A stretch of 45,598 nt of DNA from Helicobacteraceae bacterium (lineage in GTDB: Bacteria; Campylobacterota; Campylobacteria; Campylobacterales; Sulfurimonadaceae), in contig WGDB01000037.1 in the NCBI GenBank assembly GCA_015493495.1, positions 1 through 45,598 of the forward strand. The letters are read 5' to 3'. Shown one piece after another: positions 26,809 through 45,598 of this stretch; position 1 is the first letter of the stretch; each line of letters opens with the position of its first letter. Both the position numbers and the translations under genes were made by a program. Below the pieces are notes generated by a model. It did no database searches and was not told where the DNA came from. It saw only the letters and a list, made by a program, of their open reading frames with translations.

Positions 26809-27555
26809 ATGAGCATAAAAGAGTTTTTTGCATATGGTGAGCAGGTAGAAGGATATGATGTTCGTGTCATTAATGAACGCGAAGCCCGAGCAGCTGCAGG
26901 TATCTTGTTTGCAGTAGGTCTTTTGAGTCTGAGTAATGCTGTGATGTTGAGTCATGGTGTTGTAACCCGTTTCTTCATCTCTTTTTTTACTTTGGACTTT
27001 CTGATCAGGGTGATCAACCCCAGTTTTTCTCCAAGTATGTTGCTCGGTCGTGTTTTTGTACAAAACCAAGAACCCGAATATGTCGGTGCCGCGCAGAAGC
27101 GTTTTGCATGGAGTCTAGGTCTTCTCTTAGCACTTCCTATGTTCTATCTGCTGGTGATCCACTGGCAACCCAACCCTTTAAAAGTCTTTATCTGTATTGT
27201 CTGTCTGGTACTACTGTTTATGGAGTCAGCTTTCTCCATCTGTCTGGGATGCAAGATCTACAATTGGGTCATGCCTCAAAAAGCGACACACTGCCCTGGC
27301 GGGGTGTGCGAGATCCGCAGTAAAGATAAAATCCAGACCTTCTCTTTCGCTCAAAAACTTATAGTCTCATTGACCTTAGTCACTATAGTCGCTGCAAGTT
27401 ATGGCTATATCTATAAGATTGATACCAAGACCCATATAGGTAGGATCGTAGCAGAAGAGTTTATGAGTGAAGCAGACTTTAAAGCGCAACAAGAGGCAGA
27501 GTATCAAAAAGCACTGGCTGAATTTGAAGACGATGATGATGACGATGATGAATAG
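26809..27555 (+). CDS. DUF4395 membrane protein with poly-acidic tail
   Basis: A 248-residue membrane protein. VRVINEREARAAAGILFAVGL, LDFLIRVINPSFSPS, PEYVGAAQKRFAWSLGL and FSICLGCKIYN are the landmarks of the DUF4395 family as I recall it. Five or so membrane segments are visible, including one after a CPGGVCEI loop, and a C-terminal coil ends in EFEDDDDDDDE. Cysteine pairs (CLGC, CPGGVC) suggest metal or thiol chemistry but no function is known to me. The ribosome site AGAGGTG precedes the ATG. It is followed by a terminator and then by the permease operon. Confidence 0.8.
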   Translation: MSIKEFFAYGEQVEGYDVRVINEREARAAAGILFAVGLLSLSNAVMLSHGVVTRFFISFFTLDFLIRVINPSFSPSMLLGRVFVQNQEPEYVGAAQKRFAWSLGLLLALPMFYLLVIHWQPNPLKVFICIVCLVLLFMESAFSICLGCKIYNWVMPQKATHCPGGVCEIRSKDKIQTFSFAQKLIVSLTLVTIVAASYGYIYKIDTKTHIGRIVAEEFMSEADFKAQQEAEYQKALAEFEDDDDDDDE

Positions 27556-27595: not shown

Positions 27596-27611
27596 ATCAA
27601 GATATCTTGAT
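27596..27611. promoter_or_regulatory. perfect 16-bp palindrome ATCAAGAT/ATCTTGAT before the permease operon
   Basis: The core is TCAA-N6-TTGA, resembling the operators of ArsR/SmtB-family metal sensors. It lies 49 bp upstream of the permease start, over or just before a possible promoter (TATAGT near 27633). No ArsR-family gene is present in the window, so the regulator would act in trans. The operator idea is inferred; the palindrome is seen directly. Confidence 0.55.
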
Positions 27612-27659
27612 TTATTGCTTTTATTCTGATATAGTATTGAAATAAATTGAGGGGTATGT

Positions 27660-28604
27660 ATGTGGAAAGAATCAGTCGATTATCTAACTGTTGATCTCTT
27701 GGGCCTGAGTGGCCGTGTCAACGATACGATTAACTTCTTCATCTATGACAGTGCAAAGATCATGTTCTTACTGCTGACTATCATCTTTGTTGTCTCCTAC
27801 CTAAGAACTCATTTCAACACCGAGTATGTACGTGCTCATCTACAGGGTAAGTCGCAGCTTTATGGTAATGTTTTGGCAGCGCTTTTTGGGATTATCACAC
27901 CATTTTGCTCATGCAGTGCTATTCCTCTTTTCTTAGGGTTTATTCAGGCACGTATTCCTCTAGGTGTCACCTTCTCTTTTCTTATCAGCTCACCGATGAA
28001 CAATGAAGTGGCCATCGCTCTTTTGTTTGGTCTGTTTGGTTGGAAAGTCACGATCATATATATAGGATTTGGCCTTTTAGTAGCGATTTTAGGAGGTTTT
28101 TTCATAGGAAAACTGAATATGGAAAAATACATTTTGCTGGATGTTACGCCGATGGAGGGTGAGCTTGACGAGGTAAAGATCAAACTCACCTTCAAACAGC
28201 GTGTTGCAGAGTCTTGGGACTACACCTACGACATCTTGAAAAAAGTATGGCTTTATGTTCTCATCGGTGTGGGTGTGGGTGCTTTTATACATGGATACGT
28301 GCCTGCTGAGTTCATCGCGACTTATGCTGGTGGAGACAAGTGGTACGGTGTGCCATTGGCAGTACTTATGGGGATCCCGATGTATTCTAATGCAGCAGGT
28401 GTCATGCCTCTGGTCGAAGTATTGACAGAAAAAGGGATGCTTCTGGGAACGGCACTGAGTTTTATGATGGCCATCACGGCCCTCAGCCTTCCGGAGGCGA
28501 TGATCTTGAAAAAGATCATCCACATAAGACTGATCGGTCTCTTCTTTGGGATCGTCGGTCTGGGTATCATCTCGGTAGGATACCTCTTTAACTTTATATT
28601 ATAG
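27660..28604 (+). CDS. DUF318/UPF0718 permease (ArsP-like)
   Basis: A 314-residue inner-membrane permease with eight or so membrane segments. The family core is ITPFCSCSAIPLFLGFIQA followed by FSFLISSPMNNEVAIALLFG, and a second half with GVPLAVLMGIPMYSNAAG. Members include ArsP, an exporter of trivalent organoarsenicals, and Cu/Zn-efflux relatives of this superfamily. The CSC cysteines suit a soft-metal or thiol-bound substrate. It is the first gene of the 11-gene run and is preceded by a palindrome and GAGGGG. The specific substrate is unknown. Confidence 0.88.
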   Translation: MWKESVDYLTVDLLGLSGRVNDTINFFIYDSAKIMFLLLTIIFVVSYLRTHFNTEYVRAHLQGKSQLYGNVLAALFGIITPFCSCSAIPLFLGFIQARIPLGVTFSFLISSPMNNEVAIALLFGLFGWKVTIIYIGFGLLVAILGGFFIGKLNMEKYILLDVTPMEGELDEVKIKLTFKQRVAESWDYTYDILKKVWLYVLIGVGVGAFIHGYVPAEFIATYAGGDKWYGVPLAVLMGIPMYSNAAGVMPLVEVLTEKGMLLGTALSFMMAITALSLPEAMILKKIIHIRLIGLFFGIVGLGIISVGYLFNFIL

Positions 28605-28612
28605 GAGCCAAA

Positions 28613-28870
28613 ATGATAAAAATAAATGCAACACAGACAGGTATAAAAGCGACACTCAGCGGTTTTAACATGAGCAGTGTCTCAGATCGTATCGCGGCGT
28701 GTCAAGAGGGCAGTTGTGAATGTGCCTGTGACCCAGAGGTGATGAAGAAGATCGATGACATCAAAATAACAGGTGATGCAGACAACACGATTATTGAAGT
28801 TGTGGGTGACATTGATGCCAAGACAGTGGCACCGATGATGCAAGAGTGTCTGATGCCTAAAGGCTCATGA
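28613..28870 (+). CDS. small Cys-rich protein of 85 residues
   Basis: A cytoplasmic-looking protein with the cluster IAACQEGSCECACDPEVMKK (Cys29, 34, 36 and 38) and a lone cysteine near the end (MQECLMPKGS). The remainder looks like a small alpha/beta fold of alternating strands (IKITGDADNTIIEVVG). Four closely spaced cysteines suggest metal binding or thiol exchange. I do not recognise the family. GGAG precedes the ATG, and it lies eight bases after the permease and overlaps the rhodanese gene (ATGA), so it is co-translated. Confidence 0.75.
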   Translation: MIKINATQTGIKATLSGFNMSSVSDRIAACQEGSCECACDPEVMKKIDDIKITGDADNTIIEVVGDIDAKTVAPMMQECLMPKGS

Positions 28871-29316
28871 TGCGTGTATTTTTACTGGGGCTCTTTTTAC
28901 TTCAGGCCTCTTTGATGGCGCAGGAGCTTAAACCTGTCACCTTTGATGCTTATCTCAAAGGTTTTGATTATCAGGCCCGTAAAGATATGAAGATCAAGAG
29001 TGACAAGATGTTACGCTTAGTCGCACAAGGTCGGGCGCAACTGGTGGACATACGTTTTCGTGAAGAGTATGCGGCGTGGCACTTGGCAGGATCGATCAAT
29101 ATCCCCTTAAATGAACTGCCTGCACGTCTAAATGAGCTGGACAAAAACAAGCTTATCATTACGGCGTGTCCTCATAATGACAGAGCCAATATGGGTAGAA
29201 TGTTCCTACAGCTTAAAGGCTATAATGTAAAGTATTTGAGTGATGGTCTTTTAACGGCTATAGAACAGTTGCGTGGTGATAACGCTAAAGAATATATAGA
29301 AAATAAAGGAAAATAG
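28867..29316 (+). CDS. exported rhodanese-domain protein
   Basis: A 149-residue protein with an N-terminal signal peptide (MMRVFLLGLFLLQASLMAQ) and a rhodanese domain: LVDIRFREEYAAWHLAGSIN, the active-site cysteine in IITACPHNDRANMG, and YLSDGLLTA. The loop after the cysteine (CPHNDRA) differs from the usual CxxGxR, so sulfurtransferase activity is possible but not certain. It should work in the periplasm on sulfane sulfur or bound thiols. Its ATG overlaps the preceding stop, and the next gene begins one base after its stop region. Confidence 0.85.
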   Translation: MMRVFLLGLFLLQASLMAQELKPVTFDAYLKGFDYQARKDMKIKSDKMLRLVAQGRAQLVDIRFREEYAAWHLAGSINIPLNELPARLNELDKNKLIITACPHNDRANMGRMFLQLKGYNVKYLSDGLLTAIEQLRGDNAKEYIENKGK

Positions 29317-29317
29317 T

Positions 29318-29563
29318 ATGAAAATAGAGATCTTAGGCACAGGATGTGCAAAATGTATAGCACTTCAAAAAATAGTAGAAGAGGCTGTGAGTAAAGTTGG
29401 TGGATTCCATCAGGTAGTAAAAGTCGATGATATTATGGAGATCATGAAGTATAACGTTATCTCTACACCAGGTCTGGTGATTGATGGTGAGGTCAAGTCG
29501 ACAGGAAAAGCACTCAGTCTTGGCGAAGTGACAGCACTTTTAGAAGAGGCGATGCAGAAGTAG
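29318..29563 (+). CDS. TM0996/MTH895-type mini-thioredoxin
   Basis: An 81-residue thioredoxin-fold protein with the redox motif GCAKC at residues 8-12 and the family ending VISTPGLVIDGEVKSTGKA. This family (redox-active disulfide protein 2) very often sits beside DUF318 permeases, as here. It is expected to be cytoplasmic, since it has no signal peptide. GGAAAATAGT provides a modest ribosome site. Confidence 0.92.
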   Translation: MKIEILGTGCAKCIALQKIVEEAVSKVGGFHQVVKVDDIMEIMKYNVISTPGLVIDGEVKSTGKALSLGEVTALLEEAMQK

Positions 29564-29586
29564 CCTTGGCTTCTTTTGTAAAGACT

Positions 29587-30303
29587 ATGAAAAAAGTATT
29601 ATTTGCTTCAGCGCTACTCGGAACGTCTCTGCTTATGGCAGAAACTTTGAACAGTGATGATCAGTTTTATCAAGATGTTGTTCAAAAAGCACCTAATGCC
29701 AAGCCTATTTTGGTGAAAGATACCGACAGTGCAATGGGGCGTTATAACTTGCATGCCAAAAAACTTGACATCCATACCTTGGCCCGTGCTCATGGACATC
29801 TGTGTGACGGACTGGTCTTGGCGTATGTCGAACTTTCAAACACCTTGCCCAAACTCTTTAAAGATGGGGTTGTGGATAGAACAGACCTTAGGGTCGTCGC
29901 TAAAAACAGCCCTTGTCTTGTAGACACTTCCGCTCTGATGAGTGGGGCGCGGATCAACCATAAGCGACTCTCTTTGGACAATACGCTTGGCGGTAGTTTT
30001 ATTGTGCAGCGTATCTCAACGGGAGAAACTTATAAAGTCGCGTTAGCAGACAGCAGTTTTCTGAGACCTCTTAAGGCACAAGAGAAGCTTATAAAAGAGA
30101 AACGAGCCCAAGGTAAAAAGATCACAGCCGCAGACATAGATAAGGTTGAAGCACTCGCCTTTGAAGTGATGAAAACGATGCTGTATGCTGATCCAAACAA
30201 ACTACTTAAGATCACAAAATTGCCAAACTATGTGTACACCTTCAGTATCGAAGACCTTGGTCCGCGAAGTGACATCGTTAACAGAGATGTTCCTAGAAAG
30301 TAG
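29587..30303 (+). CDS. exported FmdE-like metal-binding protein
   Basis: A 238-residue protein from ATG 29587 with a signal peptide (MKKVLFASALLGTSLLMA). The FmdE signature is LARAHGHLCDGLVLAYVEL, followed by VAKNSPCLVDTSALMSGARI, which supplies the His and Cys ligands of the family zinc site. FmdE takes its name from a subunit of formylmethanofuran dehydrogenase, but stand-alone secreted members have no settled role. A TTG at 29566 is an alternative start that would extend the N-terminus by seven residues. Position between thioredoxin genes suggests a periplasmic metal or thiol partner. Confidence 0.8.
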   Translation: MKKVLFASALLGTSLLMAETLNSDDQFYQDVVQKAPNAKPILVKDTDSAMGRYNLHAKKLDIHTLARAHGHLCDGLVLAYVELSNTLPKLFKDGVVDRTDLRVVAKNSPCLVDTSALMSGARINHKRLSLDNTLGGSFIVQRISTGETYKVALADSSFLRPLKAQEKLIKEKRAQGKKITAADIDKVEALAFEVMKTMLYADPNKLLKITKLPNYVYTFSIEDLGPRSDIVNRDVPRK

Positions 30304-30311
30304 GTGGTAAA

Positions 30312-31013
30312 ATGCAAGAGACGCTTTTAGCCCTTTTAGAGTCACACTCTTTTATGGCCTTTTTGGGTGCTTTCTTTGCAGGCAGTATTACTGCAATGGC
30401 CCCGTGTTCATTAGTGGCAGTACCCCTCTTGGTGGGAAGCTCTTTAGCATTGAACAAAGATCTAAGTGGGAAAAAAAAGGTACTTTATACCTATTTTTTT
30501 ACGGGACTGTTTGCTTTAGGGGTCGCGATCAGCTTCTCCATACTTGGATTTATAGTGGCAAAGTTTGGAGGCTTCTTCTCTATCGCACCGATGTGGGCCT
30601 ACTTGACAGCAGGTATGTTCAGCATACTTATCGCACTGTACGCGCTTGGTTTTTTAGGTGCTGTGGATAAGTCAGTGATTATGCAAAAACTGCTGAAGTT
30701 CCGTCTCTTTGGCGGACTTTTGATCGGACTGGTCTTTGGTCTGGTCAGTACACCCTGTGCTTCCGCGCCGCTCTTTGCCATCATTACAGTAGCGAGCGGC
30801 AGCGGTTATCTGTATGCTTACAGTCTGATCCTGGTCTTTGCTTTGGGGCATTCACTTCTTCTGCTGCTTGCAGGGGTCTCGGTCGGTTTTGCTCAGAGTA
30901 TCACCTCCAGTGGCTGGATCACCCGCTTTTCTGACTATCTCAATAGAGCTTTTGCCCTCTTGTTGGTCGGTTTTGGGCTATACTTTTTTTATGAAGCCTA
31001 TCTACAACTTTAA
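30312..31013 (+). CDS. CcdA/DsbD-like transmembrane electron carrier
   Basis: A 233-residue membrane protein with six segments. It carries the two single cysteines typical of CcdA/DsbD-beta: AMAPCSLVAVPLLVG in the first segment and STPCASAPLFAI in the fourth. Such proteins pass electrons from cytoplasmic thioredoxin to periplasmic acceptors. The neighbours suit this: a cytoplasmic mini-thioredoxin upstream and a periplasmic thioredoxin directly downstream. Confidence 0.88.
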   Translation: MQETLLALLESHSFMAFLGAFFAGSITAMAPCSLVAVPLLVGSSLALNKDLSGKKKVLYTYFFTGLFALGVAISFSILGFIVAKFGGFFSIAPMWAYLTAGMFSILIALYALGFLGAVDKSVIMQKLLKFRLFGGLLIGLVFGLVSTPCASAPLFAIITVASGSGYLYAYSLILVFALGHSLLLLLAGVSVGFAQSITSSGWITRFSDYLNRAFALLLVGFGLYFFYEAYLQL

Positions 31014-31021
31014 GGATTAAA

Positions 31022-31408
31022 ATGAAATACCTGCTTTCAACATTGTTACTTTTTCTAGCGCTCAACCTTTTTGCCGATGAACCGATGTTGCGTGAGACGC
31101 AGTATCAATATGTAGCCTCTAGTATTGGCAAGGGTAAACCCTACTTTTTAGAGGTGGGTTCAGACAGCTGTCACAGTTGCCAGATCATGGGAAAGCTGCT
31201 TTACAAAGTGCATAAAAAGTATCCTCACTATGAGATACACTTTATCAACGTCAAAAAAGAGCGTGAAGCCGCTTATACACTGAAGATCCAGATGATCCCA
31301 ACCCAACTCATCTTCGATGCACAGGGTCGTGAAGTCTACCGTCATGTGGGACTGTTGACCACTGAAGATCTTATGAAGACACTGCACCAATATTTGGATC
31401 AGGAGTAA
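31022..31408 (+). CDS. periplasmic thioredoxin-fold protein
   Basis: A 128-residue protein with signal peptide MKYLLSTLLLFLALNLFA, the redox motif SDSCHSCQ (CHSC), and the cis-proline segment MIPTQLIFDAQGREVYRH. The fold resembles thioredoxins paired with CcdA-like carriers (SoxW/TlpA-type or DsbD-gamma). It begins eight bases after the CcdA-like gene, which is therefore its likely electron donor. The physiological acceptor may be the rhodanese or the FmdE-like protein of the same operon; that is inferred. Confidence 0.9.
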   Translation: MKYLLSTLLLFLALNLFADEPMLRETQYQYVASSIGKGKPYFLEVGSDSCHSCQIMGKLLYKVHKKYPHYEIHFINVKKEREAAYTLKIQMIPTQLIFDAQGREVYRHVGLLTTEDLMKTLHQYLDQE

Positions 31409-31411
31409 GTC

Positions 31412-32305
31412 ATGAGCGAACACCACCATCACCATGATGTAAGTGGTAAGAATCTCTTTATAACCATCATACTCAACGTCATCATCACGGTCTCTCAGAT
31501 CGTCGGGGGGATCATGTCCGGTTCCCTGGCACTGCTCAGTGACGCGATGCACAATTTCAGTGATGTCCTGGCTCTGGTCATCGCTTATGCAGCAAACCGT
31601 CTCTCAGCGCGTCCCAACACTTTGGACAAGACCTTTGGTTACAAACGTGCTGAGATCTTGGCAGCACTTTTTAACGCTTCTGTACTGATCGGTATCGCTG
31701 TTTTCCTGATCGTCGAGGCCTTTCACAAGTTCTACCATCCTGAGGCCGTCAACTCTGTCTGGGTCATAGGACTGGGACTGTTGAGTATCGTCCTCAACGC
31801 GGCGAGTGTACTGCTGGTAAAGGACGATGCGCATGAGAACATGAACATCAAAGCGGCCTACCTGCATCTTCTGACCGATGTGATGACGAGTGTCGCTGTC
31901 GTGGGTGGTGGTCTGTTGATGTACTATTTCGGACTCTTCTGGATCGATCCTCTGATCTCTGTGATCATCGCCCTTTATCTTATCTGGGCATCTATAGGTC
32001 TCATCAAGGAGAGCAGTGCTATCTTGATGCAGTTTACCCCTGCTGATATCGACATGGATACGTTGATCCAAGCGATAGAGTCAGAACCGACCATCGAAAA
32101 CGTACACCATATTCATCTATGGAAACTGGATGACCACCGTATTCATTTGGAAGCCCATCTGGACTTTAAAGAGGATCTGCCACTCTCCGCTTCCAACGCA
32201 GTTACCGAGACCCTGGAAAAAAAGCTGCATGACACTTTTGACATAGAACATACCACCTTCCAGTGTGAGTTTGAGAGAGACGACAATAAAGAAGTAATTG
32301 CCTAA
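31412..32305 (+). CDS. cation diffusion facilitator (CzcD-like metal exporter)
   Basis: A 297-residue protein with six membrane segments and a cytoplasmic C-terminal domain. Metal sites are HNFSD in segment 2 and HLLTD in segment 5, the HxxxD pairs of Zn/Cd/Co-transporting CDFs. The N-terminus is His-rich (MSEHHHHHD) and would help deliver metal. The C-terminal domain has VHHIHLWKLDDHRIHLEAHL. GC content looks higher here than in flanking housekeeping genes. It starts three bases after the thioredoxin gene. Confidence 0.93.
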   Translation: MSEHHHHHDVSGKNLFITIILNVIITVSQIVGGIMSGSLALLSDAMHNFSDVLALVIAYAANRLSARPNTLDKTFGYKRAEILAALFNASVLIGIAVFLIVEAFHKFYHPEAVNSVWVIGLGLLSIVLNAASVLLVKDDAHENMNIKAAYLHLLTDVMTSVAVVGGGLLMYYFGLFWIDPLISVIIALYLIWASIGLIKESSAILMQFTPADIDMDTLIQAIESEPTIENVHHIHLWKLDDHRIHLEAHLDFKEDLPLSASNAVTETLEKKLHDTFDIEHTTFQCEFERDDNKEVIA

Positions 32306-32342
32306 AAAAAGAATATACTATGAACTAAACAGAGGAGTCGCA

Positions 32343-33512
32343 GTGCAGAAGATCGACAAAAACATCGTTGCTATGGGCTGGGTCAGTTTCTTTACCGACA
32401 TGGCTTCATCCATGGTCACGACACTCTTGCCTATCTTCGTGGTCTATGTTCTTCATGAAGGGGTCGACAAACTTGGGATCATCATCGCCATCGCGACCTT
32501 TGTCTCTTATGCGCTGCGCATACTTTTTGGTTACCTGAGTGATCGGTTCGGGATTGTCAAACCTTTTGTTGTTACGGGTTATCTTATCAGCGCACTGAGT
32601 AAACCTTTTTTGATGTACGCGCACAGTTTCACTGCAGTAGCAGGTCTGCGAGCATTTGAGCGCATGGGCAAGGCCGTACGCAGTGCTTCCAAAGATGCCT
32701 TGATCAGCAGTTATGCCAAAAAGGGTGCTTCGGGAAAGAGTTTTGGTTTTCACAAGATGATGGATGTCTCGGGCGAGATGAGCGGCGCGTTGATCATCGT
32801 CCTTTTTTTCTTTTTTACCGCTCAAAACGAGGCCCTGATCAGAGCGATCTTTGGTTACACCCTCATCCCTGGTCTTATCGGTGTTCTCATCGTTGCTTTT
32901 TTTGTCAAAGATGCTCCTGCCAAGCCTAAAACCAAAGAGGCCGTGGTTAACCATAAGGACTATAGACTCTTTTGGGTCTTGGGCAGTTATTTCATCTTTC
33001 TCTTTTTCTTTTTGAGTGACCAGTTCTTCATCGTCGAAGCGAGAGCTACAGGGATGACACTTGCGCAGATACCGCTTTTGGTGATCGCTTCGACCTTGAC
33101 TCAGGCGTTGGTGAGTTATTACAGCGGTACGCTGATAGACAGGGTAGGAACCCATGTGATGTTGTTAACGGCGTATCTCTTTGGTGTGCTCTCCATCATC
33201 GCACTCGACTTTCATCAGTTTTGGCTCACCTTCATCTTCTTTGGTCTCTTCACTGTGGTCTCTTTGAACACCCTGCGTGCCTACATCTCAGCACATGCGC
33301 TCAGCAAAGGCTTTGTTTATGGTGTGCTGTATGGTGGCATCGCCCTCTCTGGTGCTTTGGGCGCCCTGACGGCAGGCTACATTTGGAAGCTGTACGGTTT
33401 TGAGATGATGATAGATTTCAGTCTGATCGGAACAGGGAGTATGAGTATGTTGATGCTGGTACTGCTTATTAAACACTATATAAAGGATAAAAATGTCAGA
33501 AGCATGTCATGA
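32343..33512 (+). CDS. major facilitator superfamily transporter
   Basis: A 389-residue transporter with about twelve membrane segments in two halves. The MFS loop motif is RILFGYLSDRFG between segments 2 and 3. The next loop is basic and Ser-rich (GKAVRSASKDALISSYAKKG). I chose GTG 32343, which has an excellent AGAGGAG five bases upstream. The frame is open back to a TTG at 32298 that would overlap the CDF gene and has no ribosome site. The substrate is not known; the context favours a metal complex, metalloid or thiol compound. Confidence 0.87.
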   Translation: MQKIDKNIVAMGWVSFFTDMASSMVTTLLPIFVVYVLHEGVDKLGIIIAIATFVSYALRILFGYLSDRFGIVKPFVVTGYLISALSKPFLMYAHSFTAVAGLRAFERMGKAVRSASKDALISSYAKKGASGKSFGFHKMMDVSGEMSGALIIVLFFFFTAQNEALIRAIFGYTLIPGLIGVLIVAFFVKDAPAKPKTKEAVVNHKDYRLFWVLGSYFIFLFFFLSDQFFIVEARATGMTLAQIPLLVIASTLTQALVSYYSGTLIDRVGTHVMLLTAYLFGVLSIIALDFHQFWLTFIFFGLFTVVSLNTLRAYISAHALSKGFVYGVLYGGIALSGALGALTAGYIWKLYGFEMMIDFSLIGTGSMSMLMLVLLIKHYIKDKNVRSMS

Positions 33513-33801
33513 AATGGCCAACGGTGAAGTCTTGAACGCTGCACACAGCGAGTATCCGCTTTACAAGGCGGTGTTATACGGAGACAGAGTCCTGACCGCC
33601 AAGTTCTCAAAACGGCTCAGTTGTGCCATCAAGCATCTGCCGCTGCGTCTGGCATTTTCCTATGAGTATGACGTGGTTAAAGCTCTGGAGCAGGGGGTAC
33701 AAAAAGATCCTACGCTCCTGGTCGACGGCAAGATCTTCTTAGAGGGACTGGTACAGGCTGAAGAGATCACAGATGCTTTTGAAAAGATGCTGGAGCAGTA
33801 G
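33493..33801 (+). CDS. thioredoxin-fold protein lacking a clear CxxC
   Basis: A 102-residue protein that overlaps the transporter by 20 bases. The C-terminal part (KDPTLLVDGKIFLEGLVQAE) matches the end of the TM0996/MTH895 mini-thioredoxins, but the usual CxxC position is not evident. Cysteines lie instead at SEACHE and RLSCAIK. It may be a binding rather than a redox member. AAGGATAAAA provides a ribosome site. Assignment to the thioredoxin fold is by motif only. Confidence 0.7.
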   Translation: MSEACHEMANGEVLNAAHSEYPLYKAVLYGDRVLTAKFSKRLSCAIKHLPLRLAFSYEYDVVKALEQGVQKDPTLLVDGKIFLEGLVQAEEITDAFEKMLEQ

Positions 33802-33803
33802 AG

Positions 33804-34352
33804 ATGATCTATACCTTTTTGGAACATTACTTCAACTATTACATCCTCTTTGGCTGGAGTGTTCTTGAAGGAGAAATCGGTTTGGTACTTGCTGGTGCCT
33901 TTACACAGGAGGGAAAATTTATTTATGAGTATGTTCTGCTGACAGCTATAAGCGGGGCATATTTGGGTGACACCTTTGTCTTTTTTCTGGGACGCCACTA
34001 TAAACTCAAAGCAGAGCAGTGGCTACAGCATCATGAGCAAAAGGTCAAAAAAACTGAAGATATCTTTAGTCGTTATGGCTCATGAATCCTCTTTTTTGAG
34101 CGCTATATCTATGGTGCACATATCCCCTCTCTGCTGATCATCGGTGCATCAGAGTATTCTGTAGCAAAGTTCCTTATCATCGATCTTTTGGCCGTAAGTC
34201 TCTGGGCAACGACATTTACTGCTTTGGGATATTTTTTTGGTAGTGAGGTGATCCAACTTTTAAATCTTGTTTCAAGATATTTGAGTGTCATCATTATCCT
34301 ACTGGTGTTAATGCTCTTTTTAAAAAATGTGAATGCAGAGCGAAAAGAGTGA
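33804..34352 (+). pseudogene. DedA-family membrane protein interrupted by in-frame TGA
   Basis: The frame from ATG 33804 reads as a DedA protein (YILFGWSVLEGEIGLVLAGAF, then GAYLGDTFVFFLGRHY) up to SRYGS, then meets TGA at 34083-34085. The same frame continues without another stop: ILFFERYIYGAHIPSLLIIG, more membrane segments, and an end at TGA 34352, for 182 codons in all. Homologues have tryptophan at this point (YG-x-W-x-LF), so TGG to TGA is the simplest explanation. It is either a recent nonsense mutation, a sequencing error, or UGA read-through. A selenocysteine is unlikely because the expected residue is Trp, and only a weak stem follows. Confidence 0.75.
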
Positions 34353-36160: not shown

Positions 36161-36448
36161 ATGGCAAAAGTTCTAAAGAAAAAAGCAGTCAAAGCAGTTG
36201 CTAAAAAAGCAGCAAAAAAAGTAGCACCAAAAGGTACAGCAAAAGCAGTTGCTAAAAAAGTGACTAAAAAAGTACTCAAGAAAAAGGTCACTACTACTAA
36301 AGCAGCAACGAAGGTAGCTAAGAAAACGGCTAAAAAAGTGGTCAAAAAAGCAGCAGCAAAGCCGGCAGCTAAAAAGAGCACTAAAAAAGTAGCACCTAAA
36401 AAAACAACTGCAAAAAAAGTTGTTAAAAAAGAAGCCAAAAAGAAGTAG
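36161..36448 (+). CDS. Lys/Ala-rich histone H1-like protein
   Basis: A 95-residue protein built almost only of Lys, Ala, Val, Thr and Pro in repeats such as KAVAKKAAKKVAPK. This is the composition of bacterial histone H1-like or AlgP-type DNA-binding tails, so nucleoid binding through charge is likely. There is no globular domain. A strong AAAGGAG ribosome site and a palindromic promoter suggest high, regulated expression. The opposite strand of this stretch is also open, but only as a by-product of its repetitive composition. Confidence 0.85.
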   Translation: MAKVLKKKAVKAVAKKAAKKVAPKGTAKAVAKKVTKKVLKKKVTTTKAATKVAKKTAKKVVKKAAAKPAAKKSTKKVAPKKTTAKKVVKKEAKKK

Positions 36449-43307: not shown

Positions 43308-45598
43308 ATGGCAATGAACGAAAAATTAGTATCAAAGATCGCTATTAGTGCACTTGCAGCAGCAATGCTGACAATGACTGGTTGTAGCAAAAACGATGAA
43401 GAGACGACACCGTCTCCATCAACATCAGCTTGTGATAGTTCGGTTATCAATGAAACTCTTCCTTCATCTATCGATGCAGATACGACACTTGATGCCTCTA
43501 AAGTATATGGTCTTTCAGGTAAAGTCAATGTTAAAAACAATGCCAAACTTACCATACCTGCGGGTACAACTATTGCTGGTTGTAGCGCTTCTTCTTTTAT
43601 GGTAATTGAGCCTGGATCTCAGCTTATTGCTAAAGGAACACAAGCAAAGCCTATTGTCTTTACCTCACAAAAAGATGTCCTTGGCGATTCTAACGCAAAC
43701 GCTGCAGGTGAGTGGGGTGGACTTGTTCTTGCCGGTAATGCTTATACACATTACGAAAACAACACTTATGAAGCAGATGAAAGTGTCTCTTTTGGTAGTT
43801 CAGACCATACACATGATGGTGAGTCTTCTGGAGATCTTGAGTACGTTGTTATCAAGCACTCGGGTTATGAGGTAGAAAAAGATAAAGAGCTTAACGGTCT
43901 TTCTCTTGCAGGTGTTGGCTCAGGGACGATACTGAAAAATATTGCGATCATTGGTGGTCTTGATGATGGTATAGAGATCTGGGGTGGTAGAGCCGACATC
44001 GATGGCCTCTTTATCTATAATGCTCATGATGATTCTGTTGATACAGACCTTGGTTACCGTGGTACGATCAAAAATGTTCTTGTACAGCAGATTAATGTTG
44101 ATAAGACTAACAACCACGATTCATCAGGTATGGAATTTGGTAACGACCACAATACTATCGTTACTGACGATAGCAATGCAACGCAGCCGACGATCATTAA
44201 CTATACAGGTTACATCAAAGGTGGCGGTTACTATAATAAGTTCGATGCAGGTTTCAAATGGGATAATGTCAAGTTTATCAGCGCAAAAGACACTGATGAA
44301 CAGCTGGTTCACTTTAGAGGAACAGACTCTTATGATACAGGTGCAAAACATCTACTCGGCGATGTCTGTTTTAAAGATACAGCACTTACATTGACTGAAG
44401 ATAACAGCTATTCTAAATCTAACTCAAAAGCGCCTAAAACAGAAAAAACTGCCTATGATTACTTTGTAGCAGATCACAAAATCGATCTTGGTGGTAATGT
44501 GATTTATATTGATGATAGTGGTTCATGTGCCGGTGCTGATGAAACGACTATTTGGAAAGGTAAAGCGGGTAGCAACGATCCACTAGAGACACCTGCAGCA
44601 GCATTGTCATCTACAATCACAACTGATATGACTCTGACAGCAGATAAAGTCTGGTCAATTAGTGGTAAGGTTAATGTCAAAGCTCCAGCTAAACTGACTA
44701 TTGAACCAGGTACAACACTTGCCGGTGCAACACCATCTTCTTATCTGGTTATTGAGCCGGGTGCACAGATCATTGCTAACGGTACAATGGCAAAACCGAT
44801 TGTCTTTACATCACAAAAAGACGTTGACAACGCTTCACACGATAACGCTGCAGGTGAGTGGGGTGGACTGGTTCTTGCCGGTAATGCTTATACGCACTAC
44901 AGTAACAACAAGTATGAAGCGGATGAGACTGTGACATTCGGTAGCACAGACCATACACACGATGGCGAATCGTCAGGTACCCTAAACTATGTGGTTGTTA
45001 AGCACACCGGTTTCGAAGTTGAAAAAGACAAAGAGCTTAACGGTCTGTCGTTAGCTGGTGTTGGTTCAGGGACGACATTGACAAACATTGCAATTATTGG
45101 TGGTCTTGATGATGGTATCGAGATCTGGGGTGGTACAGCTAATATTACGGGTCTTTATATTTACAATGCTCACGATGACTCAGTTGATACAGACCTTGGT
45201 TACCGTGGTACGATCAAGAACGTTGTTGTTACTCAGGTCAATGTTGATAAAACGAACAATCACGATTCTTCAGGTATGGAGTTTGGTAACGACCACAATA
45301 CTATTGTTACTGACGATACTAATGCAACGCAGCCGACGATCATTAACTATACAGGTTACATCAAAGGCGGTGGTTTTTATAACAAGTTCGATGCAGGATT
45401 CAAATGGGAGAATATCACATTTGTTAGCGATAAGACAGCAGATACAGAGATGATTCATTTCAGAGGAACAGACTCATACACAACAGGTGCCAAGCATGTT
45501 AATGGTGCGGTCTGTTTCAAAGACAATGCTGAGACGTTGACAGATGCCTTGACATACAGCAATGCAAACTCCAAACCAGATACAAATCCGGCGGGACA
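43308..45598 (+). CDS. large repeat-built beta-helix-like lipoprotein, 3' end cut off by window
   Basis: An open frame of at least 763 codons from ATG 43308, preceded by AAGGAG, runs off the right edge. It begins with a lipoprotein signal whose lipobox is MTGC at Cys26, then a Thr/Ser/Pro linker. Two tandem copies of a roughly 382-residue unit follow (LSGKVNVKNNAKLTIPAGTT, GEWGGLVLAGNAYTHY, GLDDGIEIWGG, then a SSGMEFGNDHNTIVTDD stretch absent from the short paralogue). Each unit matches the lipoprotein at 37435 over much of its length. It is probably surface-exposed; binding of a polymer or metal is possible but not shown. Confidence 0.85.
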   Translation, partial: MAMNEKLVSKIAISALAAAMLTMTGCSKNDEETTPSPSTSACDSSVINETLPSSIDADTTLDASKVYGLSGKVNVKNNAKLTIPAGTTIAGCSASSFMVIEPGSQLIAKGTQAKPIVFTSQKDVLGDSNANAAGEWGGLVLAGNAYTHYENNTYEADESVSFGSSDHTHDGESSGDLEYVVIKHSGYEVEKDKELNGLSLAGVGSGTILKNIAIIGGLDDGIEIWGGRADIDGLFIYNAHDDSVDTDLGYRGTIKNVLVQQINVDKTNNHDSSGMEFGNDHNTIVTDDSNATQPTIINYTGYIKGGGYYNKFDAGFKWDNVKFISAKDTDEQLVHFRGTDSYDTGAKHLLGDVCFKDTALTLTEDNSYSKSNSKAPKTEKTAYDYFVADHKIDLGGNVIYIDDSGSCAGADETTIWKGKAGSNDPLETPAAALSSTITTDMTLTADKVWSISGKVNVKAPAKLTIEPGTTLAGATPSSYLVIEPGAQIIANGTMAKPIVFTSQKDVDNASHDNAAGEWGGLVLAGNAYTHYSNNKYEADETVTFGSTDHTHDGESSGTLNYVVVKHTGFEVEKDKELNGLSLAGVGSGTTLTNIAIIGGLDDGIEIWGGTANITGLYIYNAHDDSVDTDLGYRGTIKNVVVTQVNVDKTNNHDSSGMEFGNDHNTIVTDDTNATQPTIINYTGYIKGGGFYNKFDAGFKWENITFVSDKTADTEMIHFRGTDSYTTGAKHVNGAVCFKDNAETLTDALTYSNANSKPDTNPAG
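43437..45598 (+). repeat. tandem DNA repeat, period 1146 bp, inside the large lipoprotein gene
   Basis: Unit 1 (about 43437-44582) and unit 2 (from about 44583, cut off by the window end) align with a constant offset of 1146 bp, checked at 43518/44664, 43701/44847 and 44051/45197. Long stretches are nearly identical at the DNA level, including around 44030-44250 and 45176-45396, while other parts have drifted. The offset is a multiple of three, so copies can be gained or lost in frame. Confidence 0.85.

Follow-up and report, generated by a model that had tools for sequence, protein, structure and literature searches.

Arsenic resistance (ars) operons are known in which genes for CcdA, thioredoxin and redox-active disulfide protein 2 occur together, usually with arsC. 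For ArsP, the organoarsenical permease known from Campylobacter jejuni (PF03773, about 300 amino acids), a C(S/T)C motif and a cluster of TPF type have been described, and MFS and, rarely, CDF transporters have been listed in ars operons (Yang et al. 2015; PMC4435449). Arsenate reductases are known in Sulfurovum from vents (PMC7159903). Plasmids from Comamonas, NT-25 and Rhodobacter have a permease gene and, after it, genes for a small thioredoxin and for a rhodanese; this module is located among annotated ars genes or next to them. Plasmid pSCD of Sulfuricella harbours a single 20-kb row of arsR, arsC, acr3, permease, arsM, thioredoxins, RND, CcdA, TauE, FmdE and CDF genes. The arsenic reading of the locus described here draws on prior literature (PMC2963123, PMC4435449).

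The window analysed is a stretch of 45,598 nucleotides (contig WGDB01000037.1, assembly GCA_015493495.1) from a Helicobacteraceae bacterium. It harbours eleven ORFs, all on the plus strand, that span positions 27660-34352 and meet at junctions of -20 to +23 bases according to their ORF coordinates. The features of the locus are:

26809-27555, plus strand: DUF4395 membrane protein, a conserved upstream neighbour that is not part of the unit under operator control
27596-27611, no strand assigned: perfect palindrome ATCAAGATATCTTGAT, overlapping the -35 hexamer TTGATT; putative ArsR operator
27607-27635, plus strand: sigma-70-like promoter (TTGATT, 17 nt, TATAGT) just ahead of the permease gene
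27660-28604, plus strand: ArsP_1 (DUF318) permease, 314 aa; PF03773, 230 bits; TPF-CSC motif
28613-28870, plus strand: ORF2, Cys-rich small protein of 85 aa without known family; conserved CxxGxCxC; homologues adjoin arsR, arsC or permease genes
28867-29316, plus strand: exported rhodanese; PF00581; signal-like N-terminus; active-site CPHNDR
29318-29563, plus strand: mini-thioredoxin of the MTH895/ArsE family (redox-active disulfide protein 2); CxxC
29587-30303, plus strand: exported FmdE-like protein, 238 aa; PF02663, assigned also by alignment and by fold matches to 2glz, 2gvi and 3d00
30312-31013, plus strand: CcdA-like transmembrane electron carrier; PF02683 (DsbD_TM)
31022-31408, plus strand: periplasmic thioredoxin; PF13098; signal-like N-terminus; CHSC
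31412-32305, plus strand: CDF cation exporter; TIGR01297, 257 bits; His-rich N-terminus
32298-33512, plus strand: MFS transporter, not ArsJ; PF07690
33493-33801, plus strand: thioredoxin-fold protein without CxxC; weak PF13192 (Thioredoxin_3)/TIGR00412 matches
33804-34352, plus strand: DedA (VTT) membrane protein; reading frame broken at 34083-34085 (in-frame TGA)

The preliminary description of this DNA had presented the row as eleven tightly packed genes of named protein families. All eleven were found as described, except for the interrupted DedA frame, where the alternatives are a pseudogene, a recent nonsense mutation and an error of sequencing; its homologue at L098:4227-4931 has a glycine where the TGA aligns. 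Family scans likewise agreed with the names given earlier, with the qualification that the tenth protein, of the thioredoxin fold, lacks CxxC, and they left ORF2 as the sole protein without a family match. The mini-thioredoxin scored 95.4 bits with TIGR00412 (cut-off 62), and homologues of the tenth protein are present in loci L025, L028, L029 and L031. No solved structure similar to the permease was found by sequence comparison. Separate internal promoters had been named as an argument against a single unit; within the row, sites resembling promoters or terminators are no commoner than in shuffled sequences. In vent relatives the DUF4395 gene separates that of the permease from those of an HAE-type RND pump and its fusion protein. 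It recurs in the window, L015, L016, L025 and L028-L030, and in the window the RND pump is not next to it. Elsewhere in the window a 95-aa Lys/Ala-rich histone H1-like protein is encoded at 36161-36448 (plus strand), and two similar open frames at 43984-45453, close to where the window ends, resemble readings of a coding repeat.

No arsR, arsC, arsB or acr3 gene is present in the ORF list of the window operon. With at most one mismatch, the palindrome ATCAAGATATCTTGAT occurs at two sites in the 2.57-Mb genome, one being that of the window. The other lies on contig C113, directly upstream of a gene for an ArsR-family protein with an SCVCDL motif. A thioredoxin-type arsenate reductase gene (arsC) is located downstream of this arsR, and an ArsB-type pump gene is divergent from arsR-arsC. 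From its gene position we infer that the ArsR of C113 binds the window palindrome. The genome encodes two ArsR proteins with As-type CVC motifs (C113 and C51) and a third with a similar CVCDL (C100). A second ArsP_1 permease (L019:2195-4354, contig C51; 382 aa, VCSCG motif) is encoded beside a divergent ArsR with ELCVCEICD, and no palindrome copy is present at that locus. In addition, a 177-aa frame (L020, contig C32:4101-4460) matches the ArsP_1 profile only at its two ends (12-80 and 232-293), as though the middle part had been lost.

The palindrome pattern was found in 89 of the 249 genomes of the order and in 2 with a reversed control. Among 30 sampled sites, 26 adjoin arsR, arsC, arsB or an ArsP-type permease gene, and three of the four that do not are near a contig end. 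ATCAAGATATCTTGAT would serve as a compact operator tag for arsenic regulons throughout the order.

The FmdE-like protein was assigned to PF02663 with 49.6 bits (cut-off 22.9). The ATG at 29587 is probably its start rather than the TTG at 29566, giving a clean signal-like N-terminus. An alignment showed that HGHxC and a second cysteine (C110) are invariant in FmdE-like proteins, distant members included, and such a site fits binding of a metal or metalloid. The same alignment showed that the C-terminal zinc ribbon of some members is absent here and that the Citrobacter protein has a CxxC-type C-terminal extension. A fold search with a predicted model ranked three solved FmdE-like proteins first (2glz, 2gvi and 3d00); the model, of moderate confidence (mean pLDDT 67, below 50 in the region of the second cysteine), supports the fold only.

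Exported FmdE-like proteins are rare, occurring in 4 of the 249 genomes of the order, the window genome included. An alignment search added ten full-length relatives from Sulfurimonas, Sulfurovum and other Campylobacterota MAGs. Since L023 and L017 are the same contig, 12 independent FmdE loci besides the window were available; some are short contigs, so that the lower gene counts are minima. The mini-thioredoxin is encoded in all 12, plain or as a DUF2892-Cys-thioredoxin fusion, the permease in 11, CDF in nine (about 80% identity or more) and CcdA in seven. The periplasmic thioredoxin was found in four of these loci, the rhodanese and the thioredoxin-fold protein in three each, and ORF2, MFS and DedA in none of the 12. 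The conserved core is permease - mini-thioredoxin - FmdE - (CcdA) - CDF. The recurrence in related loci shows that the eleven-gene row is not due to chance. All 12 loci also carry the palindrome, located ahead of either the permease gene or the gene that opens the row, and in nearly all the -35/-10 layout is the same as in the window. The palindrome-headed row of L022 starts with an arsenate reductase gene, so that arsC heads an FmdE operon there, while L024 has a second palindrome ahead of an arsenate reductase gene upstream of the permease. As a negative control, 26 loci of other PF02663 proteins of the order were sampled; neither the operator nor ars genes were found nearby.

Further genes adjoin some of these operons. 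In vent loci L027, L029, L023 and L033 the FmdE operon has two recurrent neighbours, which encode a carboxymuconolactone-decarboxylase/AhpD-like protein and an SQR-like FAD oxidoreductase, and the ars operon of Alicyclobacillus also has an FAD oxidoreductase and a member of the same small family; these two may form a further arsenic-linked pair. In two Sulfurovum loci (L028:9002-9703 and L029:9032-9688) a rubrerythrin/desulfoferrodoxin-like protein, recognized by eye, is inserted in the FmdE operon.

Homologues of ORF2 were found in 30 of the 249 genomes, and nine of the ten best adjoin arsC, arsR, arsB or a permease gene. Selenocysteine was looked for in these homologues and none was found; the TGA codons flagged in G221 and G148 are a terminal stop or lie beyond the protein end. 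In a sister genome (L094) one row consists of arsR-arsC-permease-ORF2-mini-thioredoxin-CcdA-periplasmic thioredoxin, and in L095 the order is arsC-permease-ORF2-mini-thioredoxin-CcdA-thioredoxin-rhodanese. L093 and L098 harbour related gene sets. The window operon resembles a row of the L094 type that lacks arsR-arsC, these two being on another contig under the same operator. Outside the order, an FmdE-family gene adjoins permease-thioredoxin-rhodanese in Citrobacter Y19, and the Alicyclobacillus ars operon (arsD, arsA, arsR, arsB, arsC) holds a distant FmdE sharing 32% identity with that of the window.

The observed gene content and order, their conservation, the operator sharing and the recurrence with ars genes indicate that the row is very probably an ArsR-controlled arsenic resistance operon, with arsR, arsC and arsB at another locus of the same genome. 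We infer the arsenic connection from gene linkage and each transport and redox step from family knowledge. It is proposed that ArsR on the palindrome blocks the -35 element until its CVC site is occupied by As(III), or by MAs(III) or Sb(III); the repressor would then leave the DNA, and the window operon and arsR-arsC would be expressed jointly. Trivalent arsenicals would then be exported by the ArsP-type permease via its CSC motif, with thiols on the cytoplasmic side supplied by the mini-thioredoxin. Electrons would pass from CcdA to the periplasmic thioredoxin, which may maintain reduced cysteines in the exported FmdE-like protein and in the rhodanese; outside the membrane these two could then bind arsenic or modify it with sulfur. 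Accompanying toxicants would be exported by CDF and MFS. The substrates may be inorganic, methylated or thiolated arsenic, or antimony. Against the arsenic reading count the absence of arsR, arsC, arsB and acr3 from the window operon itself, the lack of conservation of MFS and DedA in FmdE-bearing loci, the divalent metals that the CDF family normally moves, and some plasmid FmdE loci (Kosakonia, Halorubrum), which have TauE or CDF and, in their vicinity, no genes for ars efflux or reduction.

Part of this evidence could also be accommodated by an operon for export of divalent or soft metals (Zn, Cd, Cu) with a thiol-repair branch, controlled by a metal sensor of the ArsR/SmtB family and not by an arsenic sensor. 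The CDF protein with its His-rich N-terminus, conserved in nine of the 12 related loci, would suit such a function, as would the distant likeness of the permease to the SO_0444 Cu/Zn efflux family and the Halorubrum FmdE gene found with CDF, TauE and ZIP and without nearby arsC or arsB. However, the operator partner is arsR-arsC beside arsB, arsR-arsC is located inside sister operons, and the permease scored 99 with SO_0444, far under the cut-off of 300 bits, which makes metal export improbable. An operon for sulfane-sulfur or persulfide stress, in which rhodanese, thioredoxins and CcdA act under a BigR/SqrR-type sensor of the ArsR family, is judged more improbable still. It would explain the exported rhodanese, the three thioredoxin-like proteins and the TauE and cytochrome c added in vent relatives, but the ArsR sharing the operator has SCVCDL and scored far under the BigR (27 of 155 bits) and TsoR (37 of 115 bits) cut-offs, and its regulon contains an arsenate reductase and adjoins an arsenite pump.

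Quite possible, although we lean slightly against it, is one transcript with two functions: an arsenic core from permease to periplasmic thioredoxin, followed by CDF, MFS, thioredoxin-fold protein and DedA as unrelated passengers. This would be compatible with the main arsenic reading. It agrees with the restriction of MFS and DedA to the window among the FmdE loci and with the interruption of DedA, whereas the recurrence of CDF and thioredoxin-fold protein beside FmdE in several vent loci, and of an MFS 33% identical to that of the window near the ars row of G137, speaks for these genes being part of the set.

An ArsR-controlled arsenic operon is in line with the earlier suggestion of metalloid detoxification with a thiol relay from cytoplasm to periplasm, which is supported. 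The earlier guess of a soft metal, a metalloid or sulfane sulfur holds for the metalloid, which the shared ArsR-type operator and the gene linkage allow to be specified as arsenic or a related element such as antimony; the sulfur and soft-metal parts are disfavoured. This proposes a substrate class and a regulator for an otherwise unlabelled eleven-gene row and ties the rare exported FmdE-like protein and the unnamed Cys-rich ORF2 to arsenic. The role of the FmdE-like protein is a guess. Tentatively, and with some doubt, it might be a so far unrecognised arsenic-handling protein of the periplasm. Its HGHxC/Cys site, for which CcdA and the periplasmic thioredoxin would provide reduction and the exported rhodanese sulfur, would capture arsenic that leaves through the permease, or thiolate it. 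If true, the FmdE step would represent periplasmic arsenic resistance in vent Campylobacterota outside the known ars repertoire, and this step is directly testable. A full-text literature search for FmdE and arsenic returned one unrelated mat survey and no published link between the two; a search on DUF318 gave nothing useful.

The initial proposal of an undescribed system was not borne out: the operon is most likely a large variant of the known ars gene set, in which MFS and CDF had already been listed. Its permease, likened to ArsP by family and motif, is of the TPF type (cluster 2; TPFCSCSA). SaoE and SO_0444 (NCBIfam) are related permease families of which it is not a member, SaoE of the SAO organometal system reaching 111 of 325 bits. 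The MFS has no meaningful similarity to ArsJ (E 0.03 over 50 aa), and no GAPDH gene of an ArsJ/GAPDH system is present in the operon. The modules of Comamonas C11, Rhodobacter pRCB133 and the NT-25 plasmid share the permease (45-50% identity) and the thioredoxin and rhodanese that follow it, but are without exported FmdE or CcdA and have arsA, acr3 or arsJ adjacent. The super-cluster of Sulfuricella denitrificans pSCD combines most of the same families in another order, with acr3, arsM and two arsC genes in line and an FmdE of a different type. As in the ars operons with CcdA, thioredoxin and redox-active disulfide protein 2, all three redox genes are present in one operon here. Unlike those operons, the window operon is without arsC, which its sister operons have (with arsR in L094), and adds exported FmdE, rhodanese, CDF and MFS. 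What appears uncharted in the set is the exported FmdE-like protein alone, together with its link to the ArsR operator.
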